In this document: one piece after another, positions 821-61,735 of the stretch
Numbering within the stretch: the first letter of the stretch is position 1
How the letters are laid out: each line of letters starts with the position of its first letter
IMG/VR virus record: IMGVR_UViG_3300037245_000806
Location: 1-64,000 of that record
Length of the DNA stretch: 64,000 nt
Reading direction: 5' to 3' (one strand)
Origin: a virus
Notes under the pieces: generated by a model
What the model was told of the DNA's origin: nothing
Seen by the model: the letters and a program-made list of their open reading frames with translations, nothing else
Databases searched by the model: none
Made by a program: the position numbers and the translations under genes

Positions 821-835
821 GTGACACAGTGTTAC
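821..835. promoter_or_regulatory. Dispersed operator-like palindrome, site 1
   Basis: GTGACACAGTGTTAC on the plus strand. The TAA stop of the 388-aa gene lies inside it (832-834). Its lower edge is 14 bases before the start codon of the 84-aa gene. No convincing promoter was seen next to it. Confidence 0.7.
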
Positions 836-1998
836 GAATTCTGGAAAATCCGGTACAGTTCGCACCGGCTACACGTGCAGCCGTTCGCAGCTGCTTCAGC
901 CATCGTCTGGCCCTTGTCATGCATCCACTGACCTGACTTCAATCCGGGCAGGACAGCCGCGAGCTTCCCAACCCGTGGCGGCACCGCCTTGAGCGCGGAG
1001 TCAATACTCTCCACGATGATCTGTGCGGTGACCGGGGGCAGGGCCTCACGAACGTAGCCCTTCGCCTGCACCAACACGTCAGCCAATATGCCCTGCGAGG
1101 CAAGCGCCTCCCGGTACGGTCCTGTCTCCTCCACGCAGATGCACGGGCGACGACCTGTTCGCTCCTCGACCCACCCGTCACCATCGCACTCGTCGCAGAC
1201 CTTACCGCCAAGCTCGACAAGCTCGTCCTCTAATGCCTTGACCTTCTCGCGTGCCTCGTGGAGTTGATTCGATGCTTCCACCATTCGCGTGTGCGTGTGC
1301 CCACGCTTCTCTTCGGCGTCTTCGTACTTCGCAGTGATCCGGCCCATCTCGATCTGGAACTCAGCCTTCACCTTCGCCCAGAAGTCGCGAATGTACTGCG
1401 CAACGAAAACCTTCTCCTCGTCGCCGATGGTCTCAGCCTTGCACACCACATCCTCGATGAAGTCCTCGGCGTCCTTGTCAGTGTCCAGCGCATGCATATG
1501 CGCCGCGTTCAGCATGAACGACAGATGCCCCTGACCCGCCAAGTGCATCTGTAGCACCACGCCACCGAGAAGCGACTTGGCAGTCTGCAACTCCACCCCG
1601 CATGCTTCGATCTCTGTATGCAGCGAATCGTTCGTGCGCTCGCGCCGGTCCAGAGCAACACGAAGAAGCCGCATCTCCCGCCGAAAATCCATCACGTTAT
1701 CAGGCGTCCCCGCGAGGCTCCGCAGGAATACCCACGGGTCGTAGCACTCCTGAAACTGCGGGTCATCCCACTCAGGCACTTCACCGCCGGTACCTTCTAG
1801 GAATTCCGAGTCGAGCTTGGCGAGTTCCGCGAGGAGCTTGAACCAATCCTTCGGATGGACGCGCGCTTCGATCTGTTGGTGTGCCCGCGCGAGTACACCC
1901 TCGATGGTCAGCTGCACGACCGTGCCATCTTTCCGGGGGATGACTACAAAGCCCCCGTCCCACTTCGCGTTTCCAAAATCCAGTTCTCTCTCGGGCAT
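832..1998 (-). CDS. Coiled-coil protein with a DnaJ-like zinc motif
   Basis: 388 residues. I chose the ATG at 1998 because it follows AAAGGAAA at good spacing; a longer frame opens at 2055 without such a site. Heptad-like helical sequence spans about residues 105-265. It is followed by a CxxCxGxG-type zinc motif (C268, C271, C286, C288), like one repeat of the DnaJ zinc domain. A second cysteine cluster ends the protein (C374, C376, C379). Function is unknown; metal binding plus a coiled coil suggests an adaptor (inference). It lies downstream of operator site 2. Confidence 0.75.
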   Translation of the reverse strand: MPERELDFGNAKWDGGFVVIPRKDGTVVQLTIEGVLARAHQQIEARVHPKDWFKLLAELAKLDSEFLEGTGGEVPEWDDPQFQECYDPWVFLRSLAGTPDNVMDFRREMRLLRVALDRRERTNDSLHTEIEACGVELQTAKSLLGGVVLQMHLAGQGHLSFMLNAAHMHALDTDKDAEDFIEDVVCKAETIGDEEKVFVAQYIRDFWAKVKAEFQIEMGRITAKYEDAEEKRGHTHTRMVEASNQLHEAREKVKALEDELVELGGKVCDECDGDGWVEERTGRRPCICVEETGPYREALASQGILADVLVQAKGYVREALPPVTAQIIVESIDSALKAVPPRVGKLAAVLPGLKSGQWMHDKGQTMAEAAANGCTCSRCELYRIFQNS

Positions 1999-2013
1999 CG
2001 AATTTTTCCTTTC

Positions 2014-2028
2014 GTGACTCTGTGTCAC
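2014..2028. promoter_or_regulatory. Dispersed operator-like palindrome, site 2
   Basis: GTGACTCTGTGTCAC on the plus strand; read on the minus strand it differs from the consensus at one arm position. It is 16 bases upstream of the start at 1998. It also contains the TGA of a weak 72-codon frame (2025-2243). Confidence 0.6.
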
Positions 2029-2243
2029 GGATTCTTCGTTACGCTTCTCAGGCAACCTTGCATCGAGGCCGTTCTCCTCGGATTAGACTCTAAAAGGTGT
2101 GCGTGACAGGCGGCTGCCGTTTGCCGCCTGTCGTAGAACCTTTTTGTATCAATTGAATACATAGATATTACATGTAATGCATATGTATACAGATGATCCA
2201 TTGACCCATGGGCCAAAAGCAAGAAGTGTGCCAGTGTACCCAC
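2025..2243 (-). CDS. Possible small protein, uncertain
   Basis: A 72-codon frame with a GTG start nine bases after AGGAGG. Its TGA lies inside operator site 2, as the stop codons of accepted genes do at several other sites. Against it: the frame runs through an AT-rich palindromic stretch and through a 10-bp-stem hairpin, and the protein looks unlike its neighbours. A competing 33-codon ATG frame (2149-2250) uses the same ribosome binding site, but only two bases away. If neither is real, 1999-2314 is a non-coding regulatory region. Confidence 0.3.
   Translation of the reverse strand: MGTLAHFLLLAHGSMDHLYTYALHVISMYSIDTKRFYDRRQTAAACHAHLLESNPRRTASMQGCLRSVTKNP
2105..2132. terminator. Strong hairpin, possible terminator
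   Basis: Perfect 10-bp stem (GACAGGCGGC and its complement) with an 8-base loop. On the plus strand a run of five T follows after about ten bases; on the minus strand ACACCTTTTAG follows. It lies between the RecQ operon and the 388-aa gene. Confidence 0.55.
2149..2220. other. AT-rich palindromic segment
   Basis: Clearly richer in A and T than its surroundings. It holds a perfect 12-bp palindrome, ATTACATGTAAT (2167-2178), and the short palindromes CAATTG, ATGCAT, CATATG and GTATAC. It may be a regulatory or replication site (inference). Confidence 0.4.
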
Positions 2244-2303
2244 GGGACATAACCTCCTGAGCGTGGCGGGGTAGCAACATACTCCCCCAAAGAGTTCACG
2301 CGC

Positions 2304-2318
2304 GTAACACAGTGTTAA
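2304..2318. promoter_or_regulatory. Dispersed operator-like palindrome, site 3
   Basis: GTAACACAGTGTTAA. It contains the TAA stop (2315-2317) of the 224-aa gene that follows the helicase. Confidence 0.7.
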
Positions 2319-2989: not shown

Positions 2990-4726
2990 TCAAAACCCCT
3001 TCTGGAAATAATCGCGGATGCACTGAGCGCGGTCCTTTGCGTGGACATACGCGCACATCTGCGCGAAGCGCTTCAACTCGCGTGCGCGTTTTGCTTCGAT
3101 TTCCTCGCGGGGCAGGAAGTCCTCAAGCTTTGCGAGCCACTGCTTGACGCGCGTAGTCTTCCCTCGGAATTGCCTCTCAACCCTAATGATGCCCTTCTTG
3201 TTCAGCACGCTGAGCGCCCGTGAGAAGGCCAGCTTACTCATGCCAAGCTTGGACGCCATCGAAGCCCGGTCAATGTGAAGCTCGCAGCATTTCTGCAACT
3301 GGCCCGTCGCTAGGTCAGCAAGCTCAGCCGCGACCTTGGTGACCACCTTGCCGGTCGCGTCCCCGAGTTGCTCCTTGTCCACGAGCAACGTCGCGCCTGA
3401 GCCTGCGTATGCGCGCACGACAAGATCGTTCTTCTCCATCATGTTGAGCACCGTGCGCACAACGCCTGACTCAATGCAGTGCCCGGCGCTCTTCAGTATG
3501 GCGGATATTGCAGCACAGGACAGCGAGAGTTGTTCTCTCGGGCCTGTAACCGCGAGATGGAGGTATTCCCATATGCACTCGAATGCCTCATAGGGAGGAT
3601 TGGCCTCTTCGAGGAACGCCTGTTGAAGCGTGTAGCTATAGTCACTGTTGAGAAGTATGGCCCGTGAGTTCTTGCCGTCACGCCCGGCCCGGCCTGACTC
3701 CTGCACGTAAGCTTCGAGCGAGCCGGGGATGCCGAAGTGTACAACCTCGCGAATGTTCGGCACGTCAATCCCCATGCCGAAGGCGCACGTGGCGACGATG
3801 ACCGGAAGCTTGCCGTCCTTGAACGCGTTCTGAACCTTCTCGCGCTCTTCCTTGCGCATCCCGCCGTGATAGAAGCCGACGCACCCCGGATACAGCTGGC
3901 GCTCCACGATCTCAGCGATCTTCTGTGATGCCGCCCGCGTCCCGACGTACACGATGTACCGCCCATGCGCCGTGTCGAAAGCACGAGCGATACGGTTTAT
4001 CGCGGACCACTCATTGGTATGGCAGACCTCATACTTGATGTTCGGCCTGACCGGGTCACCGACGAAGCGCACGTAATCGTCACGCATCCCAATGGACTCA
4101 GCGATGTCATCCTCGATGTCAGCCGTCGCAGTAGCCGTCACCGCAATGACCTGAGGACGCTCGTCTTCCCCGTGTGCTTCGCCGATAGCGTCGAGAATCA
4201 GCTTGATGCGCGAGTACATCGGTCGGAAGTCGTGGCCCCACATGGACGCGCAGTGCGCCTCGTCAACGACCAGATAGCTGATATGCGCGCTCCTGATCGT
4301 CGCAAGGAACTCCTTGGACCTGAGCCGTTCCGGCGCGACGTACAGGAGCTTGTACGAGCCGCCAATGAAGTCGTCTAGGCGCTCGGTTCGTTCGTCTTCA
4401 TCCACGTGGCTGTTGACATAGGTCGCCGGGATGCCGCGAGCATTGCAGTCGTCCACCTGATCCTTCATCAGCGCGATGAGGGGCGATATAACGAGCGTGC
4501 TGCCTTCGGCAATCATTGCAGGTATTTGGAAGCATACACTCTTGCCGTATCCGGTCGGAAGGACAGCAAGCACGTCTTTGCCGCTGAAGATGTCACGTAG
4601 CACGCGGGCTTGGTCCGCACGGAAGTCGTCAAACCCCCAGCGATCCTTGAGCACCCCGCGAGCGGCTTCCATGATTTCGTCCATGGACCTGTTGAGGTCT
4701 GCGGCGATTTCGCTTGTACTAGGCAT
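2990..4726 (-). CDS. RecQ-like ATP-dependent DNA helicase
   Basis: 578 residues. RecQ family features are in order: motif 0 near residues 29-40, Walker A LPTGYGKS (56-63), DEAH box (155-158) followed by the RecQ-type aromatic loop with WGHDFRP, and motif VI ESGRAGRDG. These enzymes unwind DNA 3' to 5' in repair and recombination. The last residues (MCAYVHA...CIRDYF) resemble only the first half of the RecQ zinc domain, so RQC and HRDC parts appear truncated or replaced by a winged-helix-like segment. The start at 4726 follows GGAG; the frame extends to 4921 without a better site. A promoter is predicted at 4799-4827. Confidence 0.9.
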   Translation of the reverse strand: MPSTSEIAADLNRSMDEIMEAARGVLKDRWGFDDFRADQARVLRDIFSGKDVLAVLPTGYGKSVCFQIPAMIAEGSTLVISPLIALMKDQVDDCNARGIPATYVNSHVDEDERTERLDDFIGGSYKLLYVAPERLRSKEFLATIRSAHISYLVVDEAHCASMWGHDFRPMYSRIKLILDAIGEAHGEDERPQVIAVTATATADIEDDIAESIGMRDDYVRFVGDPVRPNIKYEVCHTNEWSAINRIARAFDTAHGRYIVYVGTRAASQKIAEIVERQLYPGCVGFYHGGMRKEEREKVQNAFKDGKLPVIVATCAFGMGIDVPNIREVVHFGIPGSLEAYVQESGRAGRDGKNSRAILLNSDYSYTLQQAFLEEANPPYEAFECIWEYLHLAVTGPREQLSLSCAAISAILKSAGHCIESGVVRTVLNMMEKNDLVVRAYAGSGATLLVDKEQLGDATGKVVTKVAAELADLATGQLQKCCELHIDRASMASKLGMSKLAFSRALSVLNKKGIIRVERQFRGKTTRVKQWLAKLEDFLPREEIEAKRARELKRFAQMCAYVHAKDRAQCIRDYFQKGF

Positions 4727-4870: not shown

Positions 4871-4885
4871 GTAACACAGTGTCAA
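4871..4885. promoter_or_regulatory. Dispersed operator-like palindrome, site 4
   Basis: GTAACACAGTGTCAA. It contains the TGA stop of the 65-aa gene (4882-4884) and lies about 45 bp upstream of the helicase promoter. Confidence 0.7.
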
Positions 4886-5079
4886 GCCGCCCGCGAAGCA
4901 AGATAGAGCACGCAGTCCCACATCATCTGGTGGAACTTGGCCCGTGTCACTTCGTACACCTTCGGGCGATCTTGAATGGTAAAGGATACGTGGGTCTTCG
5001 TGATCGTCTCGATCTTGACATGAAGACCACCGCTATATGTCATGTACACGTCGCCCTCTTTGACGATGTAGCTATCCAT
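4882..5079 (-). CDS. Hypothetical protein (65 aa)
   Basis: Starts at MDSYIVKEGD, where GGAGGAAGCGC precedes an ATG that overlaps the previous stop (TGATG). The alternating pattern with IVKEGDVYMTY looks like a small beta-barrel of SH3/KOW type, but this is only a visual impression. Function unknown. Confidence 0.7.
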   Translation of the reverse strand: MDSYIVKEGDVYMTYSGGLHVKIETITKTHVSFTIQDRPKVYEVTRAKFHQMMWDCVLYLASRAA

Positions 5080-5555: not shown

Positions 5556-5813
5556 CTAGGCAGCCTTCTTGGCCTTCTTGGGCATCGCGGACGGCATGCC
5601 GTCGTAGCCTTCGAGGAACCACGCCGGGCTCACCTTCATCTTCTTGGCGAGCGTTTCGAGGTCGGCGAGGAGAATGGCGGTCTCGCCCCGGAGCTTCTTG
5701 CTCACGGTCTGCTGCGAGATGCTCATCATCTTGGCGACCTTCGCCTGCGTGCCACCCTTCGACATGATCCGCATGCCGATGTTCGTGTACCGTCCGACTT
5801 TCCTGTCAGCCAT
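5556..5813 (-). CDS. XRE/Cro-type helix-turn-helix regulator
   Basis: 85 residues starting MADRKVGRYT after a GGTGGAG site. Residues about 22-42 (TQAKVAKMM, ISQQTVSKKLRG) form a textbook XRE helix-turn-helix, followed by two helices and a lysine/alanine-rich tail. It has its own promoter (5888-5916) and terminator (5505-5538), so it is transcribed alone, unlike almost all other genes here. The only other regulator seen is the NrdR-like protein. It is therefore the best local candidate to bind the dispersed palindromes (inference). It is short for a CI repressor, with no dimerisation or cleavage domain, and closer in size to Cro. Confidence 0.85.
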   Translation of the reverse strand: MADRKVGRYTNIGMRIMSKGGTQAKVAKMMSISQQTVSKKLRGETAILLADLETLAKKMKVSPAWFLEGYDGMPSAMPKKAKKAA

Positions 5814-12002: not shown

Positions 12003-12341
12003 CTATACCCCGCATCCAGCTGCTGCCTTGCGCTCTTCCATCACGCGCGTGACCTCCTCGAAGTCAGCGCTCTTCAGTCTAACGCCCCAACGCTGCCCGG
12101 CGAGCTTCTTGCGCTCGGCTCTGTCATGCACGGCCTGCCTCACGCTATAGAAGCATGTCGTTCTCGGGCCAACGGATACACGCTCGTCAGTGCCCATCAA
12201 CAGAAACCGTTTCCGGCGACTCAAGACGGGATACTGCCGACCGTACCACTGCTCCGTGAACCCGGCGAAGCAGTAGCCACCGCGCACGAGCATTCGTGAC
12301 ACGGTGTTGACGATCTTAGCGTTTGCCTTACTCCGGGCCAT
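12003..12341 (-). CDS. Basic hypothetical protein (112 aa)
   Basis: Overlaps the end of the upstream gene by 14 bases. Strongly basic, with aromatic residues in the first half. No motif recognised. Confidence 0.6.
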   Translation of the reverse strand: MARSKANAKIVNTVSRMLVRGGYCFAGFTEQWYGRQYPVLSRRKRFLLMGTDERVSVGPRTTCFYSVRQAVHDRAERKKLAGQRWGVRLKSADFEEVTRVMEERKAAAGCGV

Positions 12342-12900: not shown

Positions 12901-12915
12901 TTGACACAGTGTTAC
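12901..12915. promoter_or_regulatory. Dispersed operator-like palindrome, site 5
   Basis: TTGACACAGTGTTAC. It contains the TAA stop of the 308-aa gene (12912-12914) and ends 22 bases before the GTG start of the next gene. Confidence 0.7.
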
Positions 12916-13899: not shown

Positions 13900-13927
13900 A
13901 TTATGCCTCGCCTTAACACAATGTCAA
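13900..13927 (-). promoter_or_regulatory. Predicted promoter with embedded operator
   Basis: TTGACA, 16 bases, CATAAT: the best -10/-35 pair in the accessory region. The -35 box is part of the dyad at 13913-13927. The leader to the ATG at 13838 is about 55 bases. Confidence 0.65.
13913..13927. promoter_or_regulatory. Dispersed operator-like palindrome, site 6
   Basis: TTAACACAATGTCAA, a variant with AATGT in place of AGTGT. It overlaps the -35 box of the promoter at 13900-13927, as expected for a repressor site. Confidence 0.65.
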
Positions 13928-20724: not shown

Positions 20725-20739
20725 TTAACACAGTGTTAA
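20725..20739. promoter_or_regulatory. Dispersed operator-like palindrome, site 7
   Basis: TTAACACAGTGTTAA, perfectly symmetric and extending to 17 bp (20724-20740). It starts three bases after the stop of the 133-aa gene and lies 17 bases before the GTG of the gpI-like gene. Confidence 0.75.
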
Positions 20740-24005: not shown

Positions 24006-24020
24006 GTAACACAATGTCAA
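24006..24020. promoter_or_regulatory. Dispersed operator-like palindrome, site 8
   Basis: GTAACACAATGTCAA. On the minus strand its left half is TTGACA, and TAGGAT follows 16 bases on. That pair could be a weak promoter giving a nearly leaderless transcript, but the same AGGAT probably serves as the ribosome binding site. Confidence 0.65.
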
Positions 24021-27619: not shown

Positions 27620-30600
27620 TAGAGGCCCCCGTTTGCAATCGTGGCGACATCAGGGTCTATGCCCTTCGTGCGTGGCCCGGAACGCGTGCCTGCGCCAGCC
27701 ACTCGCACCGGCCTGCCACCCTTAATGGCGGCGACGATCTCAGCAAGTAGCTCATTCGAGCGTATCAACGCATCGTGTACCGGCTTGTCTGAAGTGCTCG
27801 GGTCAAGTTCCATACGCGTCGTCTGTGAAATCTCACCGTGAGCAAGGACCGGTGAACTGAGTTCCTGCCTGAGATTCTTCGCGGTTGACACAGCGGCACG
27901 AATCGCCGCAGCCGTCTTACCGCGCTGCGTGATTATCGACTTGGCGTCCTCGCGAACGTTTCGCAGCATGCCAGCAAGAGCCTTGATGCCAGCCACAGGC
28001 TTGACAAGTCCTGACACCGCCTGCGTAGCTACATCGGAAGTCGTCTTCAGCGTCTCGGCAGTCATGCCGCCGATATTCTGCTTGAGCAACGCCATCTCAC
28101 CCACGATTGAGACGATACCTTTGCGGAAGGGCTCCATGCCTGCCACAATCGTCGTGAGCGCGCCGCTGAATATCCAGCCGTCCTGAAGCGCGCCAATGTT
28201 CTCACCTGTTTCGGCCACAGCAAGCGCGAGCGGGTTAAGCCCACGCACAACCTCTGCGGACACCTTGATCGCATGGATCGCTGCGTCGGCCCCGCCGAGG
28301 CCCTTGTCGAGGAAGAAGAACTCTGCCACGAGGCTGCGAATAACACCCGTTATGCCTGAGGCCTTGCCTGCCAGCGCCGCCATCGGTGAATCGACGCCGA
28401 AGAAGTCCATGATCGACTCCGTGGCCCGGCCAAGGTAAGTCGGCGAGATACTGCGGAGGCTCTGCGTTATCTTGTTGTAGTTGACCGTGAACTCAGCCAC
28501 CGCCTTGACGGTCCCACTCACATTGTCCAGCGCCTTAATCTCCGAGTTGCTGAAGTTGAACTTGGACACGAGCTTGTTCACAGTCCGCTTGATGGACGTC
28601 GTTTGGTCTGAAAGGCTTTCCAGCGGTGACTTCGCACCGAAGCCCCAGAGGATGAGGTCAACTGCTTTGCCAACCATAGCGCCAGCCGCGAGACCCGTGA
28701 TCGTGGCGGCAACCACAGCCAAGCCCGTAATGAACCTTACCGAACCTGTCATCGCCTTGAGCGCCGCGTCGAGCTTCGCCTGATCCACGTTGAACGTGTC
28801 GAGAAGCGTACTGATTATGTTGCCCACGCTACCTGACACACCCGTGGGATTGAGCACCTTCATGGCCCCGGCGAAGAGCATGAAGCCCGGCACTGACAGT
28901 GCGAGCCCTGCGCTGAGGCCGACCACACCCACCCCGATGCCAAGGAACGCTGGACCGATGAGAAGCAGCGATGCTGCCGTAGCGGCAATCTGCCCGGCGC
29001 TCATCGACTTGAACGCGTCAAACATGGGTGTGACTGCTTTACCTATGGCTTCGCCTATCGCCACGATTGCAGGGGCGGCAATACGCGCCATCGCGGCAAC
29101 CGAGAACCCGACACCCACGAGCGCGAGAAGCCCGAGGCCACCCGGACCCATCATGGCTGCGCCGAACGTGGTGAGCGCGGGCGCGAGAGCCGTCAGACCA
29201 GCGGCAAAGCCCGTCAGGAAGCCGCCACCACCCACAGCGCCACCAGCAGCGCCTGCCCCGGTTGCGAGCGTGGTAACGCCAGCGCTCGCCTTCTTGAAGA
29301 CGCCCATCGACGACATCAGATTCTTGCCCACCTTGAGGACGCTGCTGCCAATACCGAATATGAGCCGCTTGCCCGCAATGAGTGACTCAACACCCATCTT
29401 GGCGAGGTATCCCGTAGATACGATCACCTGCGGGTTGAAGTCGTCGAAGAATTCCCCGAGGCGTATCCCGAACTTCTCGGAGAACCAGAGCCCCACGGAA
29501 TCCTTGAATCCGGTCCACGAACCGCGCGTGGCTTGTGACCGCTCAGACAACTCAGCCATACCCTCAGCGACAGGGGCTATCGAGGCACGGAGCTTCTTAG
29601 CCGTGGCGACAATCTGGTCACCGTTCCTCGCGAGGTTCACGAACTGCTCTGCGGTACCCTCAAAATTCAGTGCTTCGAGCACAGGCTTCATGTTCTGCGT
29701 TGTGTCGCCCGCGAACTTGGCCATCCGCTGCGTCATGGCCTCTATGACCTCGACGCCTTGCCCGGAGGCCAGACTGTTACGTAGCTGGTCAACTGTGAGG
29801 CCGGTCAGCTTCGTGAACTGCGGACCGTACTCAGCCGGGTCAGTGAGCGCCTGCGACATTATCTGCGCCATCTCACCGCCGAGTTCACCCCAGTTTTGCG
29901 CGAGCGAGCCTGAGATAAGGGCGAACTGCTCGATCACGCCCTTCTTCATCGCGGGGTCTTTTAGCTCGGACAGGAATGCACCCAAGCCGCCCTCATTGAT
30001 CTGCGACATCATCTTCTCGCGGAACTGCTCGAAGTCGAGTGGCGTCTGCTGCGCGAACCTCCCGAAGGTCGTGAAGGTAGCAGCAATCTCATCGCGCGAA
30101 AGGCCGAAGGCATCGTTGAGCCGGTACATGCTTTCGGCCACACCACCAGCGTCGGTACCAAAGGCCTTGGCGGTCATGGCAGCGAGTGGTGCCATTTCCT
30201 TGAGCACGTCAACGTTTGTCTCACCGGCTTCGGTCATGGCGAGGTACGCACGGCCAACCTCGTCGGCGTTGACCGCGTTACCGTACAGCGCACGAGTATT
30301 TGCGATGAGCGCTTCCGTGGTGCTGTACAGCGTTTCGCGTGTCATGCCAAGCTTCGTGTTGGCTTCAAACATGCTCTCCGACAGGCTCTGCGTAGCATCG
30401 GTGCTTATGCCCACTTGGTCAGCGACTTCCCCGGCGGCGGAACGCACCCCACCAAAAGCCTGTTGCATGGACCCGAGTGCCCGGTGTATCGCCGCGAAGC
30501 GTGTCGGGCCAAGGATTTTCTTGAAGAGGTTACTGAACGTGTCTTCAGCCTCTTCGCCTTCCTCCTGAAACGCCTTGACCTGACCGGTCGCCTTCTTGAG

Positions 30601-31433: not shown

Positions 31434-31448
31434 GTAACACAGTGTCAA
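31434..31448. promoter_or_regulatory. Dispersed operator-like palindrome, site 9
   Basis: GTAACACAGTGTCAA. It contains the TGA stop of the frameshifted chaperone frame (31445-31447) and lies 12 bases before the tape measure start. Confidence 0.7.
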
Positions 31449-35721: not shown

Positions 35722-37269
35722 CTATATTGAATGGCCCCGATAGGGACCGTCAAACCTTTGAATATAGACCGCAGAAAGCGCGGTTGTCTTCGGAACGCGC
35801 AGCGCGAGGGTATCGCCCTTCGGTTGCACGAGGAAGACAGCGCCCACGTTCACGGAGGAATCTACAACACGCTGCGCCGAGTAGGCGGGGGCGGCAGCAT
35901 CATCCTCAACCGTGACAATGTTGGGGCCACCGGTAGTGGCCGAAACGACAATTATGCACAGCCATGGTTCCCGTGCAAGTGAAAACCACTCATATTTTAT
36001 CTCCTCGCCGAGGTCAGTTTGGGCGTCGGGAGCGACCTTTGTTTGCTCATATACCCGGCGAACCTCGATTGCAGACACGAGCACGTCCTGCGCGGCCTGA
36101 TTACCGATGCCAGCGATGCGCGCGATATAAGAATCTTCATCGACAACGCTGAAGTAATGTACCTTCTGCCACAGGTCGCTCGCGGGAAGGATCAAACTGT
36201 CAGCGCTTGACAGTGTGTCAACATCGAACTTGCGCTGCACGACTTCGAGTTCAACCCGTCCTGACGCCGTATACTGGAATGACGTGGCGAAGACGTTAAG
36301 GCCGTCGTCATCGAGAAGCGTTGGGCTCTCGATCAATGGCACCTTGTCTGCCTGAACTGCCACGCCTATACGCAGGGTCAATGGCACGCCGCCAGCAAAG
36401 GCGTCCTTGGGGAACTCAACACTCGCTTTTACCGTAGCGTCACCCTCGACAGGCCACAACTCTGAGAAGCGGTTCTCAGGGAACTTGACGCGAAAGAGGT
36501 TCCACGACTGCACTGAAAGGTCAGCGGTGTCCAGAAGCACCCCGTCGTCGCCTACCTCCGCGTATACATCAGTGCCACCAACCTCGACAGGGTATCCGCC
36601 TTCAGTCGAGGGCTTGAACACCCACGTGCGCAGACTGAACGTGTATTCCTTGCGCATGTACCGCGCGCCTTCGCCTTCGAGGTCGGAAAGGTCACTGCTG
36701 CCGGTCATCTTGAGGGAATGCATGATCTCACCGAACGGCTCTTTGTGAACCACGGGGATGAAGAGTTCGTTCTCAGCGGCTCCGCGATTCCCGAGCTGTC
36801 CGTATATCCATTCGCGCATATAGACTTCGGTATACTTCTTGATGCACCACAGGGTGACGCGGTAATCAGTGCGGTAGTGCGACGGGAATGGATGCCGCTC
36901 ATACTGCCCGGTCGCCTCATTGAAATACTTGGTCCTGAACTCCTTCGTCGGCGAACCGGGAAGCTCAGGATCGAGGACCGGCTCATCGCGTTCCAGCGTG
37001 GCGATGGGGAGGGGAAGTATCGTGAAGTCCTTCTTCGCCTCTTTGCGCATCTCTTCCGCGTCGGCACCCTTTACAAAATCCAGCCCCACGAGGAGGTCAA
37101 CCACGGTCGCATACGCGCGTTGAGGGGTGCTGTACACACGCAAGATAGGGAACTGCGGCTTGGCCTCACCACCGAGATCGCCGTAATCGACAAGAAGCCC
37201 GCTAATCCAGTTGTAGAAGGCCACGTCGTGGACCCGCATGCTGTCTTCAAATGTCTCAGGGACCGCCAT
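35722..37269 (-). CDS. Virion structural protein, neck/tail region (515 aa)
   Basis: The first 230 residues are alpha/beta with YSTPQRAYATVVDLLVGLDF and TDYRVTLWCIKKYTEVYMREW. The remaining part is beta-rich, like a jelly-roll or carbohydrate-binding domain (VQSWNLFRVKFPENRFSELW). Located between neck genes and the sheath. No family recognised. It could be a tail terminator with an added surface domain. Confidence 0.6.
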   Translation of the reverse strand: MAVPETFEDSMRVHDVAFYNWISGLLVDYGDLGGEAKPQFPILRVYSTPQRAYATVVDLLVGLDFVKGADAEEMRKEAKKDFTILPLPIATLERDEPVLDPELPGSPTKEFRTKYFNEATGQYERHPFPSHYRTDYRVTLWCIKKYTEVYMREWIYGQLGNRGAAENELFIPVVHKEPFGEIMHSLKMTGSSDLSDLEGEGARYMRKEYTFSLRTWVFKPSTEGGYPVEVGGTDVYAEVGDDGVLLDTADLSVQSWNLFRVKFPENRFSELWPVEGDATVKASVEFPKDAFAGGVPLTLRIGVAVQADKVPLIESPTLLDDDGLNVFATSFQYTASGRVELEVVQRKFDVDTLSSADSLILPASDLWQKVHYFSVVDEDSYIARIAGIGNQAAQDVLVSAIEVRRVYEQTKVAPDAQTDLGEEIKYEWFSLAREPWLCIIVVSATTGGPNIVTVEDDAAAPAYSAQRVVDSSVNVGAVFLVQPKGDTLALRVPKTTALSAVYIQRFDGPYRGHSI

Positions 37270-38815: not shown

Positions 38816-38830
38816 GTAACACAGTGTTAC
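38816..38830. promoter_or_regulatory. Dispersed operator-like palindrome, site 10
   Basis: GTAACACAGTGTTAC, a perfect 15-bp dyad. It contains the TAA stop of the 254-aa neck gene (38827-38829). Confidence 0.8.
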
Positions 38831-44728: not shown

Positions 44729-44743
44729 GTGACACAGTGTTAC
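44729..44743. promoter_or_regulatory. Dispersed operator-like palindrome, site 11
   Basis: GTGACACAGTGTTAC. It is centred about 17 bases downstream of the predicted start of transcription from the promoter at 44760-44788, and 20 bases before the ATG at 44709. Confidence 0.75.
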
Positions 44744-44807: not shown

Positions 44808-44822
44808 TTGACGCTATGTCAC
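44808..44822. promoter_or_regulatory. Dispersed operator-like palindrome, site 12 (degenerate)
   Basis: TTGACGCTATGTCAC, 11 of 15 positions matching. It lies six bases after the stop of the 242-aa gene, at about -62 of the promoter at 44760-44788. Confidence 0.5.
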
Positions 44823-45557: not shown

Positions 45558-48500
45558 AGCTTCTCCTTGCCAACCAACACAAACACTTTCTCAGGGGGTT
45601 GCTTCTGCGGTCCGAAAGCTGTCCAGCCACGCTCTGCACACATGTCAAGAATAGCGTCTATATCACTTTGATTCGCGCACGTGGCACGGTAAAGGTAATC
45701 GAGAAGGTTAATGCCGTGTCGAACGTTCACTTGATACCGTGACATCGTGTTAAGCGCGCCAGAAGAACTGCCGTAGCCTTCGTCAAAATCCCTTTTCCAT
45801 TGCTCGGGCGTCATCAAGCGCTCTTTGACGTCACTGCCAAATTCGTCACCACGACCGACAACGACGCAATCAGTGCGCAGAGCAAGAGACTTATCAAAGT
45901 AAAGCACGTGATCCTGCTTCGTGGCTGCCTTACGGAAGCCCAAGAATACACCCTGCGTACCGCCATAACCGTAGTCTGACTCAACCGAAGCGCCTGTGTT
46001 GCCTGCGCCCCAGAACGACCTGACATTATGCGCCATGAGAATTGGCAATTCACCCAGCGACTTGATATACGACTTGGTGGTGCTGTTCAAACCATGCCCT
46101 ACATAGAAGTGCTTGCCAAAGAGCTTTTCCAGCTTTGCCCTGTCCCAGCCAAGGCGTTCGTGGCGCATGTACCCCACACTGCCTTCGTCGTACCGCCCGG
46201 CGAGCAATGGTTTGGCCTCAGCCTTAGCCTTGGTCACAGAGATTCCAAGAGCTTTTGCCGTTTGCTTCTGCAAGGCAGACAACGCCAGATCGTCGGCACC
46301 CTTACGGTACAGCTCCATGGCAGTCGTATACTCAGGGGTCACAACGCCAGTACCGTCCGACTTTGGCTTAATTTCGCCACCACTCTGATTCAAGTAGGCC
46401 TGCTTGGACCAGAATAGAATCTCTTTATCCTTCTCCGTAGCCACAGACATATCGATGCCGGTTGCCTGCGCAAAGAGCGTGAACAACGTTGCAATAGTTG
46501 CTGCGGACGCCGTCCCCTCAATGTACCCCCAAGACTGCCCTTGATGGCCTTTAACGCCCGTCTGCAATCCGGGCAGATTGGAGTCCATACCCGTGGAGTT
46601 CACGAAGAGTTTTGCGCCCAACGCCTTGGCCACGATCACAAACTGGTCCTGATTAGCGCCTGCGTAAACGTCATGGCTATCGTGCTGAAGAAGCAACGTG
46701 CCGTCCGCCTCCTGAACTACCTTTGGCCACTTGGCGTGGCTGTTCCCCTTCACGTCGAAAGCCTTCGGCACGTCGGGTTGCTCGTCAGATTCATCGACCT
46801 CAGGGGCTTGCCACAGGAACTCGCCCAGCTTCGGCGTGTGCTTACCCTTATGCGCAAGGAGGTCAGCCATGATAGGCTCAATGTACAAAGTGAGGTATTC
46901 AAGGTACATCCCGGCCATCGAGTTCACGATAGCGTTGGGCTCGTCCATCGGGCCATAAGTTCCAGCCGTCTTACCAGTAGCCTTTATGATCGCTATCAGG
47001 TCGGGCTTGATAGCAAAACAGGCCGCCATGGTCTTCTCGTTTACCGCCATATCCTGATTAGCCCCGCCGCCATCCTCTTCAGGGGCGAGGTGGTAGTTGA
47101 TCGACTTGATCGCGGCTTGGATTTTGGACCAGAAACCGTTCTGCGAGTCCACGGCCAATAGGTGCGGCCCCCCACTCCCCGTCACTTGCTTGATAACACC
47201 GGACTGCTTGAGCAACTTCGGAACAGCAAGCATCCCGGCGTGGCGTGCCATACGGAAATGAATGAGTGTTGCCGGAACCTTCTTACCCGGCGACTTCTCC
47301 CACATCACCGCCTTGACCATCACCTCCTGCTGCTCTATGGAATCACGGTCCACCTTCATCGCTCGCCCGCGTATCGGATACGCGGAGGCTATCGCTATGT
47401 CTTCCGCCTGCGCCTTGCCAAAACCCAAGGTCTTCGGATCAATGCGCAGCCGTGGTGCCTTCATCGACATCTTGATCTTGCCGATCTTCGGCCACTTGAA
47501 GTCGCTCTGAAGCTTCTTCAGCACCTTGGTCCAATCCTTCAGGTAGTTCTTCTGCCGTTTGTACAGCGTGTCAAGAATCTTGGTGCGCTTAGCCCCCGTG
47601 ATATCCTCAGACGCGAAGATGGGCGCGAGGAGCCCCTGAATATGCTTCTCCGTTAGCTTCCTGATCTTCTCGATCATTTCCCGAGCGGCCTTCCAAGCCA
47701 ACTCAGGTATCTCAGCCGTGGAGGCACCCCAATCATTCAGAAGCTTCTTTGCGTAGCCCTCCCCAACATTGCCCTTCGGATGCCAATGGGGGTCGAGACT
47801 CTCCGTAAGGCCCTTGAGTACGAACTTGAAGGCCTGTCCTCGATCAACAGGAACAAGACGCCCGGCCTTGAGTCGCATCCAGTTCCCGCGATGCCCGTCA
47901 TGGTCACCCATGAACATGTCGAGCATATGCTGTGTAAGGATTTCACCCTTGTCTTCATCCGGCAGGTCATTGGGGTCTGACTCAGGCGGCGAGCCTTCAA
48001 GCAATGGCTGGAAACTCCCGAGCTTCCCGTTGAACTCCATTTTCCCGACAGGTACCGTTGGCGTCTTGTCAACAAGCTGCGCCAGTTTGAAGGCTGCAAC
48101 CTCAACGTGTACCCGAACCTCAGCTTGGTCCTTTGGCGTCTTGAAGAACCATTGAAAGCCACCCGGCGAGGAGAGGACAGCGCAAGGATTGCTCCCACCG
48201 CTAATTGTGCCGCCCGTGTCCTTGAAGAGTCCGGGCTCAGGCGCACTGACCTGCTGTAGTATCGCGGGTGAATCGAACGCGATTTTAGCTGTGCCGATCT
48301 TCACGACAGGGGCAATGACGGGCTTCCACGCGGGCACAGCTGCGTATGACTTCTGCACCATTCCCGTCGCCGTGGGCGGCGCACCCACCGGAGCTTTCGT
48401 CTTCTTCGCGAGCTTGTTCTTGCCCTTGTGTGAGGCCTTCATGCGCGCCTTGAGCATACCGATGACAGCTTCGTACACAGGCTTCGTTGCAGCACCGGGT

Positions 48501-53316: not shown

Positions 53317-53331
53317 GTAACACTGTGTTAA
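53317..53331. promoter_or_regulatory. Dispersed operator-like palindrome, site 13
   Basis: GTAACACTGTGTTAA, here with the central base in the opposite orientation to most sites. It lies 12 bases before the giant gene and about 13 bases downstream of the predicted transcription start. Confidence 0.7.
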
Positions 53332-53371: not shown

Positions 53372-54571
53372 GGCCTGCCAATCGGCATCTTCTCCATGAA
53401 CCTGCTCGACCCAACGCATACGAATCGTGTCAACGTGAGTTGGGCTCATCTCAGCCATGTAGCAGACACGACCGAGCGCCTCAGCTGCGGCGAGCGCGGT
53501 ACCCGATCCACCGAAGGGATCGAAGACAATTTGGCCTTCCGAGGTCGAGTCCTCAACCATCTGGGTAATCAATTCCACGGGTTTCTGGCAGGGGTGCAGC
53601 TTGTTGACCTTGGGCTGCGGGTACTCAAAGACATTCGAGCAAATCCGGTTCGGCTTCGGCAACGCAACGCCAGCACGACCGCCGTAAAGGAGGAGGTCGA
53701 ACTGATGCATGTAGTCACCCTGCGTGAGGTTCCACGAGTCCTTCGCCCACATGAGCCACTGGTGTACCTCGCCCTTGTTCATTAGCCATGACTCGAAGAG
53801 GTTGGGCAGGAAGCGACTCGCGCAAAAGACATACGACGCGCCCTTCGTGACAGACAGGATGGTCTTGCACATGGCAGTCAGGAACATCGCCCACGAATCG
53901 CTGTCCATGTCGTCGTTATCAATGCCCTCCCACGAGTAGTTCTCGTAATCGACATTGTACGGCGGGTCGGTGATGCAGACGTGCGCCTTCTTGCGCCCGA
54001 AGAGGTCGAGCACTGCGCCGGGTTGCATGATGTCGCAGCACGCGAGACGGTGCTTGCCCAACTTATAAATGGTGTCCTTCTTCGACGCGGCTTTGTCTGG
54101 TGCCTCGGGTGTCTTGTCCTTCGCCCTGTTCTGAAGCTTCTTATCCTTCGGCAACAGCGCGTGAATGGACTCCTGTAGCTCAGCGAAACCCATCACGTCA
54201 AGCTGCGGCAATGACTTGCGTATCGACTCAAGCTGAGGGAGCGCCTTCTCCGCGTCCCAATGGCCCTGCACCGCTGGGTTATTCATCACGAGGTTCGCCG
54301 TCTTCTCAGTCACCTCATCGAACTCGACGACGATGCAGTCCACGAACTCAAAGCCCTCCTCAACGAGGCCTCTGATTCGCTGATGCCCCGAAATGCAGCG
54401 CGGAGGATCGACGGCAACGTTGACCACCGGTACTTCGAGAAGGGTCAGCGCGCGGAGGGATTCCTTGAGCCCGCGAAGAGCGTCGGGCGTGATGTCTCGC
54501 GGGTTGTAGTCGGCAAGCTCGATGTCAGCTAGGCGAAGCTTCCGGGTCTCCGGCTGAAGCGCTGCGGGCAT
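53354..54571 (-). CDS. ParB-domain DNA (adenine-N6) methyltransferase
   Basis: 405 residues. Residues 10-105 are a ParB/sulfiredoxin-like domain with the GHQRIR motif. A methyltransferase follows with the catalytic DPPY at 202-205, HPCQKP at 326-331 and the SAM-binding DPFGGSG at 351-357. DPPY before FGGSG is the beta-class order, so it probably methylates adenine N6 (or cytosine N4). Such genes often lie near phage packaging genes and protect or mark DNA. The paralogue at 54809-56089 has lost the catalytic motif. Confidence 0.85.
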   Translation of the reverse strand: MPAALQPETRKLRLADIELADYNPRDITPDALRGLKESLRALTLLEVPVVNVAVDPPRCISGHQRIRGLVEEGFEFVDCIVVEFDEVTEKTANLVMNNPAVQGHWDAEKALPQLESIRKSLPQLDVMGFAELQESIHALLPKDKKLQNRAKDKTPEAPDKAASKKDTIYKLGKHRLACCDIMQPGAVLDLFGRKKAHVCITDPPYNVDYENYSWEGIDNDDMDSDSWAMFLTAMCKTILSVTKGASYVFCASRFLPNLFESWLMNKGEVHQWLMWAKDSWNLTQGDYMHQFDLLLYGGRAGVALPKPNRICSNVFEYPQPKVNKLHPCQKPVELITQMVEDSTSEGQIVFDPFGGSGTALAAAEALGRVCYMAEMSPTHVDTIRMRWVEQVHGEDADWQALTPAI

Positions 54572-54839
54572 TTTTGGTCTCCTTCACAACTTGCGCGAGC
54601 GCGTGTGCGCGTGCGCCGTTACTCGACATGGCTCTCAGCCGGGTGTAAAGCCTGTGCGCTGATTCAGCGGTCTCGCGCACGATCTTACTGGTTTCAGACT
54701 CAGGGTCATCAAGTTCCTTGAGCCTTTGCGCCGCCCTCTCTGCAATAGCCTTGCGCAACTCAGGTGACAACGCGCTGAGCGCCGCGTGTAGTTTGTTCTT
54801 TGAAGCCGTCAATCGATCATTGGTGTCACGGCCTGCCAC
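54525..54839 (-). CDS. Small helical protein between the two methyltransferase genes
   Basis: 104 residues. I chose the GTG at 54839 because GAGGGGG precedes it. It overlaps the upstream pseudo-methyltransferase by 31 bases and the active methyltransferase by 47 bases. Nearly all helical (ELRKAIAERAAQRLKELDD). It could be a small packaging or adaptor protein; nothing identifies it. Confidence 0.55.
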   Translation of the reverse strand: MAGRDTNDRLTASKNKLHAALSALSPELRKAIAERAAQRLKELDDPESETSKIVRETAESAHRLYTRLRAMSSNGARAHALAQVVKETKNARSASAGDPEASPS

Positions 54840-56089
54840 TTCGCCCCCTCGCCATGTACGAACGTGGCCCATCGCTTCCGCACGATGTCGCAGAGCCGGG
54901 GCGTTCGCACGTATCCGATGAGCCGACGACCTGTCTTCTCAGCTGCAATGACCGTGGCCCCTGTGCCCATGTTCGGATCAAGCACGGTGTCGCCGATCTT
55001 CGAGGAGTCCATGATCGCGCGAGTCACGATCTCGACCGGCAACTTCGTCGTGGGCTTACGCTTCAAGCGGAACAGATTGCCAACGCTGCGCTCGCCCTTC
55101 ACCGCATTCCTCGCACGGAAGTATCGAGGAGAGCCTTCGCGCCAACCGTAGAGGACCGGAATCGTCGCCTCCCGGTAAGGGTACTTGGAGCTTGCCTTGA
55201 GCGAAGGGATCATCCACGCAAGCGTGTTGGACCAATGCCCCCCGAGCGCCACGAACCTTTGGTGGAGTCGCGGCAGCGTGAGAAGATTACTCGCTACGTA
55301 GACGTTGCCGTCAGTGTTATCGAGCGTGTGCTGAAGCATGACGTTCAAGAAGTCTTCGTTCACGTGCTTGGTCTCAGCGATGCACGTGAAAGCCATATCG
55401 GCGACCTTGACAGGAAAGCCTTCAAGGCTCCCCGGCTTCTCAATGGCGGCGCAAGCAATGACGTGCTCGCCCAGCTGATAGAGCCGTCCCCGTACTGACT
55501 CGGGTGATGTGCGCGCCACGGAGGGCTCAATATCCTCGTCAACCTTGCCGTGATTCTCGACGTCGTCAACGCCAGCCACAGCGCGAAGACTCCGCAAGGT
55601 GGTCTTGAGAAGTGAGTCCAGCCGCAGTGACTTGAGTTGCTTCTGTGCCTTGTCCCCGAGGGTCGAGCCGATGTCAGCGAGTAGTCGCTTCGTGAGTTCC
55701 GGTATGAAGTGCCCCCGGATGGTGCCGTTGTTGAGCGCGAAGTTGGCCCGGCGCTCCGTGGCATCATCGAAGCGGACGACAATGCAGCTAACCTCCTCCA
55801 CGCCATGAGCGATAAGCTGCCGGATGCGCTGGTGACCGCCGACGATACGCGCGCTGCCCTTGCGTAGGTTCACGACAGGGAAGGCGAGCAACCCCAGCTG
55901 CTGAAGGCTATTCGAGAGCCCGGTGAGCGCGTCCTGCGTAATGGACCTCGCGTTGTACGGGGCCTCTTCGAGCGCTGCTATGTTGAGGGTCTTCAGGGTG
56001 ACGCTGGCGTACTTCGGGTCGGCCTTCGGCTTCTTCACCGCAGACTTGCTCTTCTTCTTGGCGCTCTTCTTCTTCTTACGGGCAACCAT
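54809..56089 (-). CDS. ParB-domain methyltransferase paralogue, catalytically degenerate
   Basis: 426 residues starting MVARKKKK after GAGGGAGGG. A lysine-rich leader is followed by a ParB domain with GGHQRIR (84-90). The methyltransferase domain aligns with the neighbour to the last residues (WQAVTPMI against WQALTPAI). At the catalytic site the neighbour has DPPY, but this protein has CIAE (236-239). The SAM loop is changed to DPNMGTG (371-377). It probably cannot methylate but may bind DNA or form a heterodimer with its neighbour, as METTL14 does with METTL3 (analogy, inference). Confidence 0.75.
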   Translation of the reverse strand: MVARKKKKSAKKKSKSAVKKPKADPKYASVTLKTLNIAALEEAPYNARSITQDALTGLSNSLQQLGLLAFPVVNLRKGSARIVGGHQRIRQLIAHGVEEVSCIVVRFDDATERRANFALNNGTIRGHFIPELTKRLLADIGSTLGDKAQKQLKSLRLDSLLKTTLRSLRAVAGVDDVENHGKVDEDIEPSVARTSPESVRGRLYQLGEHVIACAAIEKPGSLEGFPVKVADMAFTCIAETKHVNEDFLNVMLQHTLDNTDGNVYVASNLLTLPRLHQRFVALGGHWSNTLAWMIPSLKASSKYPYREATIPVLYGWREGSPRYFRARNAVKGERSVGNLFRLKRKPTTKLPVEIVTRAIMDSSKIGDTVLDPNMGTGATVIAAEKTGRRLIGYVRTPRLCDIVRKRWATFVHGEGAKWQAVTPMID

Positions 56090-58407: not shown

Positions 58408-59358
58408 TCAGGCGTCGTCGCCTGCCTTGTCCTTCTTGGTTTCGTCTGGGGCACGCCCGTTGGTCACGTGCTCGCAAAGGCTGCCTGCGAGCGATGCGCC
58501 TTCGAGGATGCGCTTGGGCCTCGGCTGGCCTTCGACGGATGCGGCAATGCCCTTCTTGCCCTTTTGCGCGCCCTTCTTGGCGAGCTTCTTGGCCGCGCCC
58601 TTCTTGGCCTTCGCCTTCTTCTTGACCGTCTTGCCGCCCGCAGCGTCGGCGGTCGCCTGCCCCATCTTCGCCTTCTTGGCGGTACGGGCAATCGCGCCCT
58701 TGTGCGCCTTCTTGTACTTCTGCCACTTCTTGACGCCCGCCGGGGTGCCATCGGCGTAACCGGCAGGGTCTTTCTTGTAGTCGCCCGACTTGTAACCCTT
58801 GCCCGACGGAACGCGCTTGATGACCGACTTGTGGAGCATGGCGAGGAGCATGCGCGTGACCCTGTCCTTGCCCTTGTCGCTGCGGTTGCGAATCTTGCGG
58901 AACTCGCCCTTCTTGAACGGCCCCTTCGCCTCATCGACCTCGTAGCCCGCGAACTCCAAGGCCGCTGCGAGACGCGCCTTCTCTTCGAGCGTGTCGCCGC
59001 CGAGTTCGTTCTCAAGGTGGTACTCGAACATGGCGAGGAGGTCATCGACGTCGATGATCTTCGCGAGCGCCTCGGGGTCGAGGGTCTCGACAGGATACAG
59101 AGTCGCGCCCTCTTCGCCTTCCTTGGAGGCCTCGAACACACCGTCCTTCTCGGTGAGCCAGAGTTCCTCGAAGGTCACGATACCGGACTCGCGAACCTCG
59201 GGGTCAGCGAAGACCTCCTGAAAATCCACGCCATCGAGGAAGTCGCTGATGATTTCGCCTTCGAGGGTGAGGGTCTCCCCGTCATCCTTGAAAAGCAGGC
59301 CCATTACGTCCTGAGGATCACTGCTCGCTGCTTCGCCAACGCTAATCTCGACCGGCAT
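58408..59358 (-). CDS. Hypothetical protein with lysine/alanine-rich tail (316 aa)
   Basis: Starts MPVEISVGEA after AGGAGG. The acidic N-terminal half contrasts with a C-terminal third rich in lysine and alanine (KKKAKAKKGAAKKLAKK), like histone H1 tails or phage DNA-compacting proteins. It could bind packaged DNA (inference). It has its own predicted promoter with operator site 14 about 61 bases upstream. Confidence 0.6.
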   Translation of the reverse strand: MPVEISVGEAASSDPQDVMGLLFKDDGETLTLEGEIISDFLDGVDFQEVFADPEVRESGIVTFEELWLTEKDGVFEASKEGEEGATLYPVETLDPEALAKIIDVDDLLAMFEYHLENELGGDTLEEKARLAAALEFAGYEVDEAKGPFKKGEFRKIRNRSDKGKDRVTRMLLAMLHKSVIKRVPSGKGYKSGDYKKDPAGYADGTPAGVKKWQKYKKAHKGAIARTAKKAKMGQATADAAGGKTVKKKAKAKKGAAKKLAKKGAQKGKKGIAASVEGQPRPKRILEGASLAGSLCEHVTNGRAPDETKKDKAGDDA

Positions 59359-59443: not shown

Positions 59444-59458
59444 GTGACACAGTGTCAC
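59444..59458. promoter_or_regulatory. Dispersed operator-like palindrome, site 14
   Basis: GTGACACAGTGTCAC, perfect, and symmetric out to 21 bp (59441-59461). It lies three bases after the stop of the acidic 437-aa gene and about 61 bases upstream of the predicted start of the next transcript. Confidence 0.8.
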
Positions 59459-59461
59459 GAG

Positions 59462-60805: not shown

Positions 60806-60833
60806 ATCATGCACGGAGCGAATACTAAGTCAA
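60806..60833 (-). promoter_or_regulatory. Predicted promoter of the acidic gene
   Basis: TTGACT, 16 bases, CATGAT, with CTCGAAAGGGC upstream. Leader of about 24 bases to the ATG at 60775. No palindrome is attached. Confidence 0.45.
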
Positions 60834-61037
60834 GCCCTTTCGAGCGGAATTTATGACCTTCCGCAGGGTGCCGCTGGACTTGGATTTCGTTACGCGTTTT
60901 CGCGCCTCCGCGCATCGCTGAGAAAGCGTGTCTGCCTCTAGAAGTGAATTCAAATTGGTGGCCAACTCCGCAACAAACGCCGCACGGTCTTTACGACTCG
61001 TGTCGATACACCACGAAATGAATTCTCCATACTCCAA
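60825..61037 (-). CDS. Hypothetical protein (70 aa)
   Basis: Reads from a TTG start after GAAGGG. Helical, with a basic second half. The -35 box of the next promoter lies at its 3' end. Not recognised. Confidence 0.5.
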   Translation of the reverse strand: MEYGEFISWCIDTSRKDRAAFVAELATNLNSLLEADTLSQRCAEARKRVTKSKSSGTLRKVINSARKGLT

Positions 61038-61064
61038 CCTGCCCTTCCCTTCTCCCCCCGTAGC

Positions 61065-61580
61065 TTAACAACCCCCGGCCTTCCGCATACGCTCGCGAAT
61101 ACTCATGCGAGATTTCTTGCGCACACCTCCGCTCGATTTCTTGCGAACGCCCGCACTTGGCTTCTTGGTGGTCAGGCCTGCATGCTGCTTCAGCACCGTG
61201 AGCGCTTTCAACGTGTGGAGATTGACGTCTACTTCGTTGAGCAACTCCGTATCGAACCGCTCGATTGTGCGCACGATACCGGCGAGGGTGGAAGCTTCCA
61301 TTGGCTCACTGCCGAAGAGCAACTCGGAGGCGAGGTATCGCGTTTGCTGTTGCGGGAAATACATAAGCACGGCTAGAAGCGCGTCTTCAAGGTCTTGCGG
61401 CAGCTTCGATGTTGACGTATGTGTAGGTGTGCTGCGCAGAGGCGGGGCAGACGAGGCGCGCTTGCGCAGCTTCACGCCCTCATTGGGCTTTACGCGCTTG
61501 CGGAGGCGTACACCCGAGTTTGCCGTCGCACGTGCATTCGTGCTGCATTTCGCCGACGAGGTTGCGGAGCCGCTTTTCAT
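61065..61580 (-). CDS. Basic hypothetical protein (171 aa)
   Basis: ATG after AGAAGG. Serine/arginine-rich ends surround a helical core (residues about 58-130). The tail carries two KKSxGGVRKKS-like repeats. It overlaps the small membrane protein gene by 101 bases in another frame. Possibly nucleic-acid binding (inference). Confidence 0.55.
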   Translation of the reverse strand: MKSGSATSSAKCSTNARATANSGVRLRKRVKPNEGVKLRKRASSAPPLRSTPTHTSTSKLPQDLEDALLAVLMYFPQQQTRYLASELLFGSEPMEASTLAGIVRTIERFDTELLNEVDVNLHTLKALTVLKQHAGLTTKKPSAGVRKKSSGGVRKKSRMSIRERMRKAGGC

Positions 61581-61686
61581 TCATTGCCTTCTCTCGAACC
61601 GTTCTCCTGAGTCGCCAGTTCTGTACTGCCTGCACGACAACCAACACGTACAGCACAATGATTACGGCTGCGCAGGGTATTGACAT
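61480..61686 (-). CDS. Small membrane protein (68 aa)
   Basis: One N-terminal membrane helix (residues about 5-21: CAAVIIVLYVLVVVQAV), then a charged helix and a cysteine pair (CTCDGKLGC). Strong ribosome binding site GGGGGAGGAGG. Its promoter contains operator site 15. Its shape recalls i-spanins or small phage membrane effectors. The 101-base overlap with the next gene also recalls nested lysis genes, but no lipobox is seen there. Confidence 0.6.
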   Translation of the reverse strand: MSIPCAAVIIVLYVLVVVQAVQNWRLRRTVREKAMNEKRLRNLVGEMQHECTCDGKLGCTPPQARKAQ

Positions 61687-61707
61687 AACGCCTCCTCCCC
61701 CTGTAGC

Positions 61708-61735
61708 AGAATAGCAATCGGTAACACAGTGTCAA
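61708..61735 (-). promoter_or_regulatory. Predicted promoter with embedded operator
   Basis: TTGACA, 16 bases, TATTCT. The -35 box is the left half of operator site 15, as at 13900-13927. Predicted leader of about 15 bases. Confidence 0.55.
61721..61735. promoter_or_regulatory. Dispersed operator-like palindrome, site 15
   Basis: GTAACACAGTGTCAA. It lies two bases after the stop of the nuclease-like gene and overlaps the -35 box of the promoter at 61708-61735. Confidence 0.75.

Follow-up and report, generated by a model that had tools for sequence, protein, structure and literature searches.

Positions 1-64000 of the 143,033-base IMG/VR virus record IMGVR_UViG_3300037245_000806 carry, dispersed along their length, a palindromic site of odd length with the form GTAACACTGTGTCAC. 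This 64-kb stretch is referred to below as the window; the remainder of the record was also analysed, and the record as a whole is labelled G000, with other G-numbers denoting related viral records. Combining the distribution of the sites with the proteins encoded by the phage and its relatives, this report argues that the palindromes are probably parS-like loading sites for an orphan ParB encoded by the phage itself, with some of them also serving as promoter operators.

The phage and its palindromic sites in the window

The gene calls fall almost entirely on the minus strand (160 of 160 genes in one set and 160 of 161 in another), and the coding fraction of the 143-kb record is 0.94. The structural genes include a T4-like portal, tail sheath, major head protein and head maturation protease, while the replication genes comprise RecA, a DnaB-like helicase, a 5'-3' exonuclease and a family-A DNA polymerase fused to a uracil-DNA-glycosylase-like domain (record 131887-135018; L012:7887-11018). 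The polA homologue of G006, as read from a consensus, may contain a long insertion resembling an intein. Among named phages there was no nucleotide match to the first 25 kb, tblastn with a 1267-aa protein gave none either, and the capsid protein is <60 % identical to every match in the named-phage collection. No tyrosine integrase (PF00589) was found in eight records, which may be incomplete and in which serine integrases were not searched for. The phage is probably a virulent tailed phage.

An earlier note on the window had listed 15 sites, all of them between genes. Each of the 15 coordinates does carry a site, differing from GTRACACAGTGTYAC at 0-3 positions on one strand or both. The exact 9-bp core ACACAGTGT is enriched as claimed, although there are 11 copies in the window rather than ten, against 0.48 expected, and none of 100 dinucleotide shuffles reached 11. 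Intergenic location holds for 15 of the 15 listed sites in one gene set and for 14 in the second, which differs in its call of a small gene at 31434; however, further sites exist within genes.

All window sites are given here on the minus strand. The site at 821..835 is intergenic and contains the TAA of the upstream gene 832-1998, and those at 2304..2318, 4871..4885, 12901..12915 and 38816..38830 likewise overlap stop codons, namely those of 2315-2989, 4882-5079, 12912-13838 and 38827-39591, respectively. An intergenic site at 2014..2028 lies 16 bp before an ATG, and two sites stand 12 bp upstream of large genes, 31434..31448 before 27619-31422 and 53317..53331, with A at its centre on the coding strand, before 45554-53305. 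Those at 20725..20739 and 44729..44743 are intergenic and recognized by sequence and position weight matrix (PWM), the latter being 79 bp from a weaker site at 44808..44822 (score 18.2). Three sites supply promoter-like hexamers: 13913..13927, a promoter-operator candidate (TTGACA, 16 bp, CATAAT), 24006..24020 (TTGACA-16-TAGGAT), upstream of the baseplate wedge homologue 23570-23941, and 61721..61735 (TTGACA-16-TATTCT). The remaining listed site, 59444..59458, is upstream of gene 58408-59358. Beyond the 15, sites occur within genes at 12296..12310 (gene 12003-12341, PWM score 15.5), 36207..36221 (gene 35722-37269, score 19.1) and 45739..45753 (in the 2583-aa gene 45554-53305, score 18.8), together with a weak and doubtful one at 27885..27899 in gene 27619-31422, which scored 10.6 in one scan and 16.7 in another. 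An RNA hairpin was rejected because A and C, a non-pairing combination, are frequent at positions 3 and 13 of the site, and the sites are accordingly read as DNA half-sites.

Number, placement and spacing across the record

Scanning the whole record with a weight matrix bore out a genome-wide set, larger than the 15 sites first listed: 38-39 sites in 143 kb, against 0.6-1.7 expected. With a symmetric matrix and a score of at least 13, there are 38 sites versus 0.6 in Markov sequences, and a gap separates the sites from the background. Although the record is 94 % coding, 23 sites are intergenic, the other 15-16, or about 40 %, being in genes. These in-gene sites are not due to chance, since 16 are seen against a mean of 1.4 and a maximum of 4 in 20 synonymous-codon shuffles of G000. 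In 11 of the 23 intergenic cases, the 15-mer contains the stop codon with which the upstream gene ends, a compact fit and no evidence of function. Additionally, 20 of the 23 intergenic sites carry a central T when read on the coding strand, a bias that is absent from the intergenic sites of most of eight other records; in G014, T occupies the centre of 17 of 21 in-gene sites.

The sites are more evenly spaced than random. In G000, the mean gap is 3.6 kb and the largest 7.9 kb, with a coefficient of variation (CV) of 0.59 versus a random mean of 0.96, and a CV this low has P=0.00025 in 20,000 random placements. Random picks among the 161 gene junctions never gave a CV as low.

Arrays in related viral records

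Relatives were gathered by capsid and polymerase profiles, and 27 records were screened de novo, blind to the motif, for inverted repeats in excess. In 21 of the 27, the top palindrome was above the maximum reached by three simulated genomes; G008, G017, G020, G022 and G027, with 3-4 copies of an unrelated arm, were not counted, and the other 16, each with its own dispersed odd-palindrome array, were taken to the weight matrix. This test misses short stretches: it failed to pick up the sites of G008, although that record belongs to this phage (99.997 % identity to a part of G000). Other near-duplicates are G024, identical to part of G015, as well as G003 and G005 (95.7 %), G022 and G020 (99.6 %), and G023 and G021 (99 %), and the 16 include G024 with G015 plus two pairs from the same sample with the same motif, G005/G021 and G012/G013. 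The 11 records without a counted array are mostly short (14-32 kb), the exceptions being G009 (46 kb) and G017 (94 kb), both distant and recovered by way of ParB or RecA alone.

Site numbers reach 57 in G006, 52 in G014 and 37 in G011, against 0.3-1 expected. All 16 arrays consist of odd palindromes with A at -4 and C at -3 and are diverged elsewhere; T-R-A-C can be read in ten of them, and half-sites range over KTRACACW in G000, AYTGACAYS in G006, CAGTGACASS in G010, ATTTACGCW in G015, CAACAAW in G005 and CTGGAC in G016. Conservation among relatives, on which the earlier note had made its claim depend, extends to the site system (16 of 27 records), whereas the motif sequence has largely diverged. 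Even spacing recurs as well: the gap CV is below random at P<0.05 in ten of the 14 records with at least four sites, or in ten of 13 when G024 is left out, and the evenness of G006 (57 sites, CV 0.53) is stronger than that of G000. Mean gaps run from 1.2 kb in G019 to about 13 kb in G005. In-gene sites outnumber the largest of 20 synonymous shuffles in all eight records tested, and over half of the sites are in genes in, for example, G013, G011 and G019.

The phage ParB and other candidate binders

Outside the window, at record positions 126631-127773 on the minus strand, the phage encodes a ParB of 380 aa, whose gene adjoins recA-like and exonuclease genes near polA in the replication cluster. 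It matches ParB_N (PF02195) at 46.0 bits (cut-off 26.3) and HTH_ParB (PF17762) at 33.2 bits (cut-off 22.6), and it has the CTP-box residues AGERR and ENSEEGR. Nine ParBs of this family share an [AS]GxRR box, with GERR in seven of them, an EN box, a helix-turn-helix (HTH) in which an RR pair is invariant, and a C-terminal region particular to them; the set was hand-picked by HTH region and location in the replication cluster, an iterative hidden Markov model having drifted into ParB-methyltransferase fusions. Sequence matches in the PDB are to Caulobacter ParB, Noc and KorB chains. An AlphaFold2 model (mean pLDDT 77, pTM 0.54) retrieves ParB, Noc and KorB by Foldseek, including KorB 8qa9_B (target TM 0.72) and Caulobacter 6t1f_D (0.70). 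Judged by its sequence and predicted structure, the 380-aa protein belongs to the ParB/Noc/KorB family. Homologues of parB are present in five of seven large relatives, the same five that have a polA homologue, and a ParB search of the genome contigs collection gave no confirmed relative. Two adjacent genes within the window, 53354-54571 and 54809-56089 (both minus), encode ParB-like/N6-N4 DNA methyltransferase fusions, and site 53317 lies just downstream of them.

The presence of a ParB could also mean that the phage is a plasmid-like prophage with multiple centromeres, partitioned by a classical ParABS system, and phage N15 has dispersed centromeres. That explanation is highly improbable. 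No ParA family was found (PF13614 in none of seven records and PF01656 in none of eight, most of them possibly incomplete, with other partition NTPases not searched for), and this includes G006, whose 127-bp terminal repeat suggests completeness; moreover, the phage has its own polA, recA and dnaB-like genes. None of the nine ParBs has a ParA-binding motif, as defined in passages of PMC12704722. Given the genome-wide spacing of the sites and the failure to find a ParA partner, the job of the system appears not to be plasmid-style partition. The Aphanizomenon phage Yong-DA (ON073792, L151), which is plasmid-like, has parAB and a replication protein and no annotated virion genes.

The same sites might instead be bound by a different conserved phage protein, be it a MatP- or HU-like organizer that serves the nucleoid or packaging, or a helicase with a Crp-type HTH. 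Even spacing would suit any genome organizer, the matS palindrome is similar, and two proteins of the phage match the HU family. The DEAD-box helicase 2990-4726 (minus) has a C-terminal HTH_Crp_2 domain just over its cut-off (27.9 bits vs 27) and is matched in six of the seven large relatives. Furthermore, 47 genes, only part of which were scanned for domains, have matches in at least four of those seven, several of them without assigned function. However, HU is not sequence-specific, the helicase was not found in G013, which has sites and is possibly incomplete, and a site stands upstream of parB in most records where this could be judged (see below). A different binder is accordingly considered unlikely. 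An NrdR-like zinc-ribbon protein with a weak ATP-cone, at 56-544 (minus), was rejected as the binder, as such a protein was found in one of 11 records and in none of the ten relatives searched. A small Cro/C1-type (HTH_3) protein at 5616-5768 (minus), in a phage without a recognized tyrosine integrase, was also set aside, with matches in five of 11 records and over the cut-off in two.

Sites upstream of parB and at promoters

In five of the seven records that hold both parB and a site matrix, the parB start is preceded by a site, at 85 bp in G000, 90 in G006, 70 in G013, 37 in G014 and 48 in G015 (37-90 bp overall). Among all genes, G024 included, 158 of 1352 have an upstream site, and against this background the five-in-seven frequency for parB has a binomial P=0.0004. 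In G000 this site gives TTGACA, 17 bp, CATACT (a 4/6 match); in G013 it gives TTGACA, 17 bp, TAAGCT (3/6, below the cut of at least 4/6); and in G015 the site overlaps the -10 of a TTGACA-17-TATTAT upstream of parB. As far as the layout can be read from the DNA, it is that expected of an autorepressed promoter. When upstream sites were compared by gene family, with G000 as the reference, three families, parB among them, had one in more than half of the records, and for most families the upstream site is not conserved. Of the other two, the baseplate hub homologue (31638-32462, minus) has an upstream site in seven of ten records, although none in G000, and the gene at 58408-59358 (minus), which encodes a 316-aa protein of no assigned function, has one in six of 11; the upstream sites of both are candidate conserved promoters.

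More generally, promoters were sought as a -10-like hexamer (at least 4/6) located 16-18 bp after the -35-like hexamer of the site, along transcription. Such a hexamer is present at eight of the 23 intergenic sites of G000 along transcription, at two of 23 against it and at 3.3 % of random positions. Elsewhere, the share is 7/14 in G012, 2/44 in G006, 0/14 in G010, 0/11 in G013, 3/31 in G014, 0/11 in G011, 1/11 in G015 and 2/7 in G019. Since few intergenic sites in most records have the hexamer, promoter operators would be a minority use.

These data bear upon the explanation nearest to that of the earlier note, i.e. an operator or stoperator network in which a phage repressor, perhaps of the Cro/C1 type, occupies scattered sites and thereby silences promoters and halts elongation, as at the L5 stoperators or the phiC31 inverted repeats. 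The strong preference for gene junctions in a 94 % coding record (23 of 39 sites), the -10-like hexamers at eight intergenic sites, the centre-T bias in G000 and the presence of the HTH_3 gene all speak for it. Yet the sites are symmetric, the centre bias is not found at the intergenic sites of most other records, HTH_3 is patchily distributed, no tyrosine integrase was recognized in eight records, and neither the many in-gene sites nor the regular spacing would be predicted. We regard a repressor network as improbable. What survives of the operator claim is a single genome-wide set of sites, suited to a dimeric DNA-binding protein, with a promoter role at a minority of them; as a full account it is insufficient because about 40 % of the sites are in genes, most intergenic sites are without a -10, spacing is even and upstream sites are mostly unconserved. 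The comparison with the stoperators of mycobacteriophage L5 fails on symmetry. L5-type stoperators are also numerous and dispersed over a phage genome; however, according to PMC9283540 and PMC4351075 they are asymmetric, and the first of these sources describes their binder as a monomeric immunity repressor.

A proposed genome-wide ParB clamp

Parts of the literature on ParB proteins indicate that ParB loads at a palindrome, binds CTP and slides, that spreading needs closed DNA and that clamps can run off free ends (PMC7053999), and that KorB clamps silence genes >1 kb away (PMC11790492). In the mechanism that we infer for the phage, a ParB dimer would read each odd palindrome through its HTH, become charged with CTP, close into a clamp and slide into the flanking DNA. 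At one site per 1.2-13 kb, a figure that differs among phages (3.6 kb in G000), clamps could reach the whole of the replicating genome, and the resulting coat might compact or mark the genome and damp transcription, with protection as another option. Some of the sites would also be operators within sigma-70-type promoters, including an autoregulated parB promoter. Because spacing is kept while upstream sites are mostly not conserved, coverage, along with a few promoters, seems to be what is selected. Whereas the assignment of the palindromes to the phage ParB is what we consider probable, the fuller proposal leaves us slightly on the doubtful side and is offered tentatively: that a clade of probably virulent tailed phages uses a self-encoded ParB-CTP clamp, without ParA, to coat the genome from evenly spaced, fast-evolving palindromes, the specificities of site and protein co-diverging in each lineage.

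A number of results weigh against ParB as the reader of the sites or against the generality of the scheme. As regards the arrays, spacing is not over-regular in G005, G015, G024 or G016, and those of G018 and G021 consist of three sites each, against 1.7 and 0.7 expected. No clear array was seen in G017, a distant relative of 94 kb with three ParB_N matches, and none was found in the 20-32 kb of G020, G022 and G023, which encode ParB; the orphan-ParB temperate phages Maja and Kiko are also without a comparable array. In the protein, G006 has GHRR and G013 GFRR in place of GERR, and the top Foldseek rows have low whole-chain TM (0.45 of the target at rank 1), several with a large rmsd, the better ones being at 0.68-0.72. 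As for the gene, parB is not preceded by a site in G010 or G021, and the parB start codon of G014 is uncertain, such that its site could lie in the gene. The binomial P value for parB given above is uncorrected for the families examined. Nor is the parB linkage unique, because the baseplate hub and 316-aa families keep upstream sites as often. Finally, other conserved proteins, for example the helicase with the Crp-type HTH, are possible binders.

Comparison with known systems

The closest precedent, by analogy, is the 17-bp dyad repeat of the Cluster O mycobacteriophages. As described in passages of PMC4351075, Corndog and Firecracker have >30 odd palindromes (TGTTCGG-N3-CCGAACA), about one-third of them in genes and their function unexplained; the phages have no integrase or parAB and encode a ParB-like protein (Corndog gp90), for which the authors considered a part in genome stability unlikely. 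The two systems resemble each other in having >30 dispersed odd palindromes, some in genes, alongside a ParB-like gene. They differ in phage group and in sequence, and the Cluster O arms are invariant whereas those of G000 are degenerate. In Firecracker, 34 exact sites are unevenly spaced (CV 1.02, P=0.71), and the sites nearest to the parB-like gene 94 are 369 bp upstream and 143 bp downstream. Among the papers listed by literature searches that did not extend to preprints or subscription papers, none, judged by title and abstract opening, announced that dispersed palindromes of phages are linked to a ParB encoded by the phage.

Sites for Noc are spread over the chromosome, as the palindromes are over the phage genome; however, Noc is a bacterial protein of the Firmicutes, its site is an even palindrome and it acts in nucleoid occlusion at the membrane. 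In RK2, KorB has a ParA-type partner. Noc and its NBS sites (PMC7383237) nevertheless offer a likeness, as Noc, a ParB paralogue, is described in part of PMC12704722 as being without the ParA-binding motif, and it is among the top structural matches of the phage protein. KorB and its OB operators in RK2 are similar to the phage system in that a ParB-family clamp works with operators and silences distal promoters (passages of PMC11790492), the G000 model aligning to 8qa9 as noted above; they differ in that RK2 has KorA and that the conserved C-terminal region of the phage ParB is peculiar to it. The orphan ParBs of phages and prophages surveyed in PMC12704722 are, in the passages concerned, standalone proteins without the ParA-binding motif, and ParB-methyltransferase fusions, also present in G000, are known among them, although these passages describe no dispersed sites.

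Significance

If the palindromes are indeed the loading sites of the phage ParB, orphan phage ParBs would gain a testable function, and the Cluster O repeats, reported in 2015 as being of unknown function, would have a possible explanation. Seven of the records hold both a ParB and an array and could serve as naturally diverged ParB-site pairs for studying the evolution of DNA-binding specificity. A probably lytic virus would then be seen to organize its DNA by means of the same clamp that serves chromosome segregation in bacteria.

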